The notes beneath the pieces are model-generated. The model saw only the letters and a program-made list of their open reading frames with translations. It did not search any database and was not told the origin of the DNA. A DNA stretch of 64,000 nt from Nostoc sp. LPT. GTDB lineage: Bacteria > Cyanobacteriota > Cyanobacteriia > Cyanobacteriales > Nostocaceae. Positions 2,520 through 12,186 of this stretch are shown one piece after another. Position 1 is the stretch's first letter. The number at the start of each line of letters is the position of its first letter. The stretch is from the NCBI RefSeq assembly GCF_017115165.1, contig NZ_JABXKF010000024.1, forward strand, positions 62,015 to 126,014, given 5' to 3'. A program made the position numbers and the translations under genes.

Positions 2520-2699
2520 TAATTGGAACAATAGGGAGTAGGGAATGGAGAGTTGGGAGAAACGTGATTAATTGCGTCTGTACTAGGGGAAAATTTTTAT
2601 TAGACCTGTTGCAAAAATCCTTGAATCACCCTTCCCCAACCCTCCCCGATGTGTTGGGGAGGGGTCAAGATTTCAAGTTTCCCCCCAATATATCGGGGA

Positions 2700-2740
2700 G
2701 CCACTGCGTTGCGGAGGTTCCCTCCGTTGTAGCAAGTGGC
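2700..2740 (+). repeat. 41-bp hairpin repeat, copy 1 (GCCACTGCGTTGCGGAGGTTCCCTCCGTTGTAGCAAGTGGC)
   Basis: Near-palindrome; related to 10953..10993 and to the arms at 55223..55352; sits inside a larger ccccaaccc...ggattaaggggggt repeat. Confidence 0.8.
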
Positions 2741-2860
2741 GTGGGATTAAGGGGGGTATATTCGACTTATGCAAGAGGTCTATTGTCTACATCCTCTTGA
2801 GCAGATTTGATTATTCGGTTAAATCTAGTAAATAGAATAATTTTCGCTTTTAAATTAATT

Positions 2861-9671: not shown

Positions 9672-9755
9672 CAAATTTTGCTACTTTCTTATGCCAAATA
9701 GATACATATTAGGGAAACTTTTGAATTTTGAATTTTGAATTCAAAGCGAAGCAAC

Positions 9756-10628
9756 GTGAATGATAAAACTCAGTACTTGTTGAAATTAGTCAAACGCAAT
9801 GTCAGAGCGTATATTGCCAACCCGAAAACAAAAGCTGTAATGGTTGCAGGCTCAGTTGCAGAAAGGCTGTGCGATGAATACTCGGATTGCGATGTGATGA
9901 TTTATTACGATGAATTACCTTCTGAAGAAGAGTTGCACCTTGCGCGTCAGCAAAATCAGTGTTCAGAGTTGATCGGGATTTTAGGCGATCGACAAGAGGG
10001 TGCGTTTGGCGAGAGTTTCCTTGTGAACGGGGTTGAATGTCAGTTTGCTCATGCGACGATCGCACAATGGGAAAAGGAAATTTCAACCATTTTGGAGGAG
10101 TTTGATGTTCAATCTCCGATCATGAAAGCGATGTCAGGAACACTGGTCGGAATTCCGTTATACGGCAAAACGCTGATTCAGCACTGGAAAGCCAAGATTG
10201 CGAATTATCCCGATGGACTCGCGCAAACGATGGTCGAGCATTATCTCAAGTTTGTCCCAATTTGGGGAATGCAGTCCAAGCTTGCCAAACGGGATACAAC
10301 GCTCTGGTACTACCAAATCTTGGTTGAATCAGTCCAAAATCTTCTTGGTGTGTTGTCTGGATTAAACCACTTGTATTATTCAACATTTCAATTCAAGCGA
10401 ATGAGCAGATTTATTGAGCAAATGGATATTGCCCCTAACAATCTTGCCTCTCGTCTCGAAGACTTGTTTAGTCATGAAGCCCCTGTAGCTGTCAATGAAC
10501 TTGAAGCATTAGTTCGAGAAACCGTAGAGTTTGTGGAGATTCACATGCAAAGAGTGGATACTTCCGAAGTAAGACGGAGATTAGGGTGGAGACAGCAGCC
10601 GTGGAAACTGTGCGAATCAGATCGGTGA
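9756..10628 (+). CDS. nucleotidyltransferase-domain protein (MNT/aminoglycoside adenylyltransferase-like)
   Basis: VMVAGSVAERLCDEYSDCDVMIYYDE fits GS-x9-DxD. Start set to GTG 9756; the ORF-track TTG lies in a heptamer repeat. Confidence 0.7.
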   Translation: MNDKTQYLLKLVKRNVRAYIANPKTKAVMVAGSVAERLCDEYSDCDVMIYYDELPSEEELHLARQQNQCSELIGILGDRQEGAFGESFLVNGVECQFAHATIAQWEKEISTILEEFDVQSPIMKAMSGTLVGIPLYGKTLIQHWKAKIANYPDGLAQTMVEHYLKFVPIWGMQSKLAKRDTTLWYYQILVESVQNLLGVLSGLNHLYYSTFQFKRMSRFIEQMDIAPNNLASRLEDLFSHEAPVAVNELEALVRETVEFVEIHMQRVDTSEVRRRLGWRQQPWKLCESDR

Positions 10629-10699: not shown

Positions 10700-11253
10700 T
10701 TATTCCATTAAATCATCTGTCGCAGCCTCACCCGGATAAAAGCGATCGCTCAGAATTTCCTCAAAAGGATATAAACATTGGTTGGGAAAAGTTGAGAGTG
10801 GCAGATTTGTTTCTCCTGATGCTAAATCCTTACCATTTTGATATGATTCCTGGAGTGCTTCTTCAATGTAAGGTTTCAGGCTAGGATTCTCGCTCAACAA
10901 ATTGAGAATTTCTCGTCGTTGTACTCTAATTGTTGCTAACCCTTCGGGTTCGCCAGTCGCTACAACGGGGGGAACCCCCGCAACGCGCTGGCTCACCAAC
11001 TACGGCTGCGTTGCTTTGGTTGATATTCCCATTTGAGTAAATGTCCAATTAACACACTCAGACGATTTCTTAATTCTTGGCGTTCCTTTCTTCCCAAAGA
11101 TTCAATTTCCTCAATTAAATTGGGCAGGTCAAGCTGGTTCCATTGGTGATGAGGCAGAAGGTTAGCCTGTTGTTGAGTCCAAGTGTAAAAGTCATTTTCG
11201 TAGAGGTTTGGCATCAGGTTTACCGCAGGTTGTCCGGTTTGTGGTATCTGCAT
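10700..11253 (-). pseudogene. DUF29 family gene split by insertion of a 57-bp repeat
   Basis: N-terminal half (MPNLYENDFYTWTQQQANLLPHHQWNQLDLPNLIEEIESLGRKERQELRNRLSVLIGHLLKWEYQPKQRSRSW) ends in TGA; the remainder (LATIRVQRREILNLLSENPSLKPYIEEAL...) resumes after the insert at about 10940..10996. Confidence 0.8.
10953..10993 (-). repeat. 41-bp hairpin repeat, copy 2, inside the DUF29 gene
   Basis: Minus strand GCCAGCGCGTTGCGGGGGTTCCCCCCGTTGTAGCGACTGGC; same length and layout as 2700..2740. Confidence 0.82.
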
Positions 11254-11477: not shown

Positions 11478-11804
11478 TTAGCAAACAACAGTTGTCCGAG
11501 CTTGCTTGCGGTCTTCAGGTTTTCGTTTGATGACAATCTCTACATCATTATCTAAATCATTCAAAAATTGAAATAATCTATCAATTGAAAAGCCTGAAAG
11601 TCTGCCTCTCACCAATGCTGAAATTTTTGGTTGATCAATTCCTAAAAGTTCGGCAGCTTGGACTTGTGTTAATTTACGGAAAGTGATTGCTTCACTGATT
11701 TTGCGTGCTAGTTCAGCTTTCACTAATCTTTCTTCAGAATTAGGTAAACCTAAGTCAGCAAATACATTTCCACTGCTAGTATAAACGCTATTTTCTTTAG
11801 TCAC
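11478..11804 (-). CDS. XRE-family HTH antitoxin (HigA-like)
   Basis: LTQVQAAELLGIDQPKISALVRGRLSGFSIDRLFQFLNDLD; directly downstream of a HigB-like gene. Confidence 0.82.
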   Translation of the reverse strand: MTKENSVYTSSGNVFADLGLPNSEERLVKAELARKISEAITFRKLTQVQAAELLGIDQPKISALVRGRLSGFSIDRLFQFLNDLDNDVEIVIKRKPEDRKQARTTVVC

Positions 11805-11808
11805 TTAT

Positions 11809-12186
11809 TTACTCCTTTTCTTTAGCAGCTTGTTCCAAATAGTCTTCCTGGGCGGCTTTTAACCTCTTTTTTACTAAATCTATATCTTGTTGTGATGTAG
11901 CAATACCATGTTTTGACTTCTTTTGAAACGCGTGTAATAAGTAGACAAACTCTGCAAATTTTACAGTATACACTGCTCGGTATGTATCTCCATCAAAATC
12001 ATCTACAACCTCTAAAACCCCGCCTCCTTTAAAACCGTGCAGGGGTTTTGCATCGGGATGCTTACCCCCATGTTGTGCTATATCAAGGGCGTAACCCATT
12101 ACGTCTTGTACGTCTTCAGGGAACTCCTTTAAGTCATCTAAAGCGCTTCCAATCCATTTGAAAGCTTTTTGGTGCGTTTCGCTCAT
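11809..12186 (-). CDS. RelE/HigB-type (phage Gp49-like) toxin
   Basis: KPLHGFKGGGVLEVVDDFDGDTYRAVYTVKFAEFVYLLHAFQKKSKHGIATSQQDIDLVKKRL; 4-bp gap to the antitoxin gene. Confidence 0.85.
   Translation of the reverse strand: MSETHQKAFKWIGSALDDLKEFPEDVQDVMGYALDIAQHGGKHPDAKPLHGFKGGGVLEVVDDFDGDTYRAVYTVKFAEFVYLLHAFQKKSKHGIATSQQDIDLVKKRLKAAQEDYLEQAAKEKE

Follow-up and report, generated by a model that had tools for sequence, protein, structure and literature searches.

A hairpin-forming mobile repeat of 56 bp inserted cleanly into a DUF29 gene of Nostoc

The window, which is the whole stretch of 64,000 nucleotides of Nostoc DNA that was analysed, contains a DUF29 gene into which a hairpin-forming mobile repeat of 56 bp has been cleanly inserted. 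The best reading of the insert is a non-autonomous mobile hairpin repeat of the kind of the small dispersed repeats (SDR), an assignment made by description and not by a match to the SDR1-8 sequences. On balance we favor the view that the insert belongs to a mobile repeat of the Nostocales that is placed precisely 3' of a Y-N-G motif (mostly TGG or TTGG) without duplication, probably as a folded single strand and by an enzyme acting in trans, and that the TTGG of the DUF29 gene would be a preferred site that was hit independently about three times.

Insertion in the DUF29 gene

On the minus strand the DUF29 frame reads ...KQRSRSW and then TGA (ORF 10993..11253), with the last TGG codon at 10998..10996 and the stop at 10995..10993. 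On the 3' side of the insert the expected LATIRVQRREILNLL begins again at TTA (10939), now in another frame. The two halves match successive stretches of the Pfam DUF29 profile (positions 1-70 and 72-138), and after joining all 165 amino acids align to an uninterrupted orthologue (89%). A preliminary description had proposed the interruption after SRSW, the TGA at the left junction and the resumption of the DUF29 sequence, and all three are seen in the ORFs and the orthologue alignment. In intact Nostoc orthologues the empty site reads GTAGTTGG directly followed by TTAGC; exactly 56 bp is missing and a target duplication is absent. The length of 57 bp (10940-10996) given earlier should thus be 56 bp (10995..10940). 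The insert had also been taken as divisible by three, which is wrong: since 56 is not, it shifts the frame besides bringing a stop.

When only this copy is considered, GGT leaves a 3-bp ambiguity of the edges. The other copies settle it and place the junctions, marked by slashes, at GTAGTTGG/TGAGCC...GAAGGG/TTAGC. A 3-bp target duplication (GGT) was rejected because the other copies have none. The hairpin of the insert is more stable than those of shuffled sequences (z = -3.0). The proposal that the repeat has identifiable edges and moves or moved as a unit holds up well: the empty orthologues lack exactly these 56 bp, twelve further copies have the same kind of edges, and other genera have the exact 56-mer at unrelated loci.

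Table 1. Features at the interrupted DUF29 gene (window coordinates).
Feature	Position	Strand	Description	Evidence
Mobile hairpin element TGAGCCAGCGCGTTGCGGGGGTTCCCCCCGTTGTAGCGACTGGCGAACCCGAAGGG	10940..10995	-	56 bp; starts with the TGA that stops the DUF29 frame	Block absent from empty orthologues; covariance-model hit of 76.6 bits; other copies with the same edges
DUF29 gene, 5' part	10996..11253	-	86 codons, ending ...SRSW	ORF; Pfam DUF29 E = 5.7e-29
DUF29 gene, 3' part	10700..10939	-	LATIRV... to stop	ORF; Pfam DUF29 E = 5.9e-18; gapless join to orthologues
Target motif TTGG	10996..10999	-	Host sequence directly 5' of the element	Found in empty orthologues; site composition over 35 sites

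The repeat family

A covariance model of the family was built from 23 copies. With this model at least 84 dispersed members were found in the genome of the window; as only 150 of the 2472 candidates were scored, this number is a lower bound. The identical unit occurs there only at the DUF29 gene. The family is present in nearly all Nostoc genomes searched. Full-length members have 54-61 bp and can be written as T-GARSCAG...CTGSY-GAACCCGNAGGG, or, in the comparison of twelve copies discussed below, as T-GARSCAG...CTGSY-GAACCC..GNAGGG. The 5' foot reads TGARSCAG in all copies.

The hairpin is kept by compensatory changes. Both the main and the inner stem covary among the 23 copies, with main-stem pairs GCCAG/CTGGC, GGCAG/CTGCC, ACCAG/CTGGT and AGCAG/CTGCT, and 39 double changes were counted against 12.7 in shuffles, none of 500 shuffles being as high; the count is also far above that of slid controls. 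Covariation is of little use for the small 3' hairpin (CCC..GGG), which is almost invariant. An Rfam search of the element gave no match to a known structured RNA.

Several copies lie within or beside other repeats. In the window the covariance model also detected a shorter second member (2697..2741, plus strand), which has no GAACCC tail and sits in an apparent larger repeat (2600-2785) with inverted ends AGACCT.TTGCA...TGCAAGAGGTCT. Several of the copies L091, L105 and L109-L112 of the window genome (G000) are nested in one larger repeat ending in TTTACGCCGTGCTGTACTAG. The same end also follows an IS630-type gene at locus L171, so this larger repeat may be an IS630 derivative. At another site (L098) genome G021 has one element, and the same element in G000 (L167, G000:C105:20450-20900) has two further short repeats nested inside; many relatives are empty at this site. 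On plasmids, annotated proteins read in frame through family members or partial copies (L188, L189, L193, L194; e.g. ...VAGVPPVVAT...), and these copies thus add peptide rather than stop a gene.

Target sites and orientation

When twelve other copies were compared with empty relatives, the insertions proved to be precise, to lie 3' of a short Y-N-G motif (mostly TGG) and to duplicate no target bases. The host motifs directly before these elements are CAG, TAG, CTG, CGG, TGG or TTG. Over 35 distinct sites, position -3 is T or C in 34, position -2 is G in 29, position -1 is G in 33, and position +1 is T in 27. The leading T is part of the element, because three empty sites (L097, L101, L092) show A, A or C beside the G. 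Copy L098 additionally requires a base change at the right edge.

The TGAGCC strand has the sense orientation in the majority of coding insertions, in a sample that is small, biased and not collected for orientation. This may point to a coding strand that is exposed, or to RNA as the target. A strict sense-only rule was rejected in view of antisense cases, which are L190 and a 54-bp member (L095, L099, L159) that lies in frame and antisense at the same place in one ORF of about 286 codons in three Nostoc species, with other species lacking it.

Exact copies in other genera

Among about 85,000 species genomes the exact 56-mer was found at 12 loci, all in Nostocales and distributed over several genera and families. 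Most of these copies stand directly after TTGG or TGG, the exceptions being L170 and L175. At L169, L171 and L178 the exact element interrupts different DDE_3 transposase genes between Ser-Trp and Leu-Asn, and at L186, on a Nostoc plasmid, a sequence variant interrupts a further IS630 transposase at this same Ser-Trp/Leu-Asn codon. Without the element, the flanks of L186 and L171 gave ungapped alignments (400/400) to uninterrupted copies. Another transposase is interrupted between two Trp codons (L177, L179). When 293 genomes drawn from the order were scanned for the pattern, a close copy turned up in one further genome. Searches for a donor gave no sequence identical to the first 51 bases of the element on viral contigs, and only variants of 83-97% on plasmids.

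The same nucleotide in three Nostoc species

Among 53 Nostoc genomes, three (G000, G003 and G070) have the same 56 bp, without any difference, at one and the same nucleotide of the DUF29 gene, which suggests that elements of this small size select their insertion sites with precision and more than once. With the length of the central run left free, each carrier genome holds the exact unit a single time, always at DUF29, and one further genome has it at a different locus. A second identical copy was not found in any of the three carriers, and hence no donor was seen inside the genome. The DUF29 sequences of the carriers are 90-92% identical to one another, and their nearest empty relatives differ, G003 grouping with G021 and G070 with G004. 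The DUF29 tree requires three changes, and a single carrier clade is rejected by the AU test (p-AU 0.00022). To the left of the site, G003 and the empty G021 are identical over at least 140 bp. The haplotype of G070 is its own outward from -10, with differences from G000 at -10, -13 and +27.

These gene comparisons make it probable that the element entered a preferred DUF29 site independently. A less likely course of events is one old insertion in an ancestral Nostoc DUF29 gene, which most lineages then lost precisely or which spread between species through short homologous recombination; the element would still be the same mobile repeat. The main point in favor of this is that the exact unit is single in each carrier genome and restricted to DUF29 in all three. 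In addition, the trees of neighboring genes disagree, which indicates that recombination is common in the DUF29 region, and site L098, with its nested repeats in G000 and its many empty relatives, would fit an old insertion as well. However, besides the rejected carrier clade, there are no differences in the 56 bp even though the carrier genes are 8-10% diverged; at 8% and without constraint this would be expected for about 1 in 100 pairs. Furthermore, the limits of a tract transferred into G070 would have to lie within about -10 and +27.

Mechanism of insertion

The short left motif, the absence of a duplication and the covarying hairpin would fit a folded single strand that is placed by an enzyme acting in trans. 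The element could move as a folded single strand, with the enzyme recognizing the shape of the hairpin together with the end sequence, and the TTGG in the DUF29 gene could be a preferred target that was used about three times independently. The most likely chemistry would be that of the Y1/HUH (IS200/IS605-like) mode, in which single strands are transposed and no target bases are duplicated. Among known systems a Y1/HUH enzyme is the most natural candidate. Y1 genes are present in all eleven genomes searched, i.e. that of the window and ten related ones. When 34 Y1 loci in these genomes (110 kb) were searched for the family beside Y1/RAYT transposase genes, three weak matches were found. Since neither linkage to Y1 genes nor a donor was found, this mechanism is deduced from anatomy alone.

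The Y1 genes examined are not flanked by the family. RNA-mediated mobility is a live rival, in which the hairpin would, as RNA, be placed in another RNA or in a single strand that is being transcribed, with reverse transcription afterwards. An RNA intermediate was reportedly proposed by the 2008 SDR authors. Such a route would agree with the sense orientation of the TGAGCC strand in most coding insertions, with the structure conserved by covariation and with precise insertion without duplication. The antisense coding insertions, both L190 and the 54-bp member that three species share in frame, speak against it, and the orientation sample is small and its collection biased; we regard this route as rather improbable.

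Comparison with known mobile repeats

The nearest known kind is the small dispersed repeats of Nostoc punctiforme, reported by Elhai et al. (2008, Genome Res.; cited in PMC4390886 and PMC3733652). SDR1-8 reportedly have a length of 21-27 nt. The present family shares with the SDR that it consists of short, non-coding, dispersed and hairpin-forming repeats of filamentous cyanobacteria which can be nested within other repeats, that there are many copies in Nostoc genomes (at least 84 in the own genome), and that the predicted structure is backed by compensatory change. It is longer, at 54-61 bp as compared to the reported 21-27 nt, has a small second hairpin on the 3' side, and has TTGG-like targets instead of HIP1, where the comparison with SDR1-8 is by description only. 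A further likeness is the precise insertion into host sequence, as given for SDR5, which is reported to be inserted precisely inside HIP1 (PMC4390886). Another report lists the cyanobacterial repeats of the 2008 study among REP-like sequences without conserved terminal motifs (PMC3733652).

REP and REPIN sequences with RAYT transposases are palindromic and non-autonomous, and their movement is thought to take place in the form of folded single strands; both RAYTs and REPINs have been reported in N. punctiforme (PMC3116915, PMC3733652). The present element resembles them in being a non-autonomous palindromic repeat for which movement as a folded single strand is proposed. However, it has TGARSCAG at the foot of the hairpin instead of a GTAG or CGTC tag (the GTAG before the TTGG in DUF29 is host sequence), is not an inverted doublet of one REP, and belongs to a family that does not adjoin the Y1/RAYT genes examined. 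The likeness to IS200/IS605 elements and their non-autonomous derivatives consists of insertion 3' of a short left motif, absence of a target duplication and hairpins near the ends. Yet no examined Y1 gene bears these ends, and the present unit is far shorter, with the left hairpin filling most of it. As a small non-autonomous mobile unit it is also comparable to the MITEs of DDE transposons, but its ends TGAGCC and GAAGGG are not terminal inverted repeats and a target duplication is absent.

Serine recombination of the IS607 type is reported to involve a GG core dinucleotide at every target. The present family does not show this, since the empty targets L092, L097, L098, L100 and L103 have AG or TG, not GG, at the junction.

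Fate of the DUF29 gene

The DUF29 gene appears to be inactivated by the insert and its loss to be tolerated, as judged from sequence. Both halves are otherwise open in all three carriers. Orthologues in G011 and G073 hold in-frame stops unrelated to the insert, which indicates that the gene is dispensable. That the gene is regulated rather than dead, with the element removed from RNA or read through so that full protein is still made, would agree with these open halves but is very improbable, since 56 bp shifts the frame and brings an immediate stop, Rfam gave no match, the gene is dispensable in G011 and G073, and recent insertion explains the intact halves.

Genes have been gained and lost around the DUF29 gene in a patchwork manner. 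Next to it lie a nucleotidyltransferase-like gene and a toxin-antitoxin-like pair (window 9735-10628 and 11478-12186), which several relatives lack at this place.

Implications

A bolder reading, which we consider possible but doubtful, is that a hairpin of 56 nt spreads unchanged between genera and repeatedly enters the same nucleotide of homologous genes (DUF29, and Ser-Trp/Leu-Asn of IS630-type transposases) by an undescribed single-strand or RNA-guided mechanism that leaves no target duplication. How minute cyanobacterial repeats move is not settled, and the exact pairs of filled and empty sites provide a clean rule for their targets. Recurrent insertions at the same nucleotide, together with exact copies common to several families, make the mechanism testable, and a hairpin of 56 nt would rank among the smallest mobile elements.
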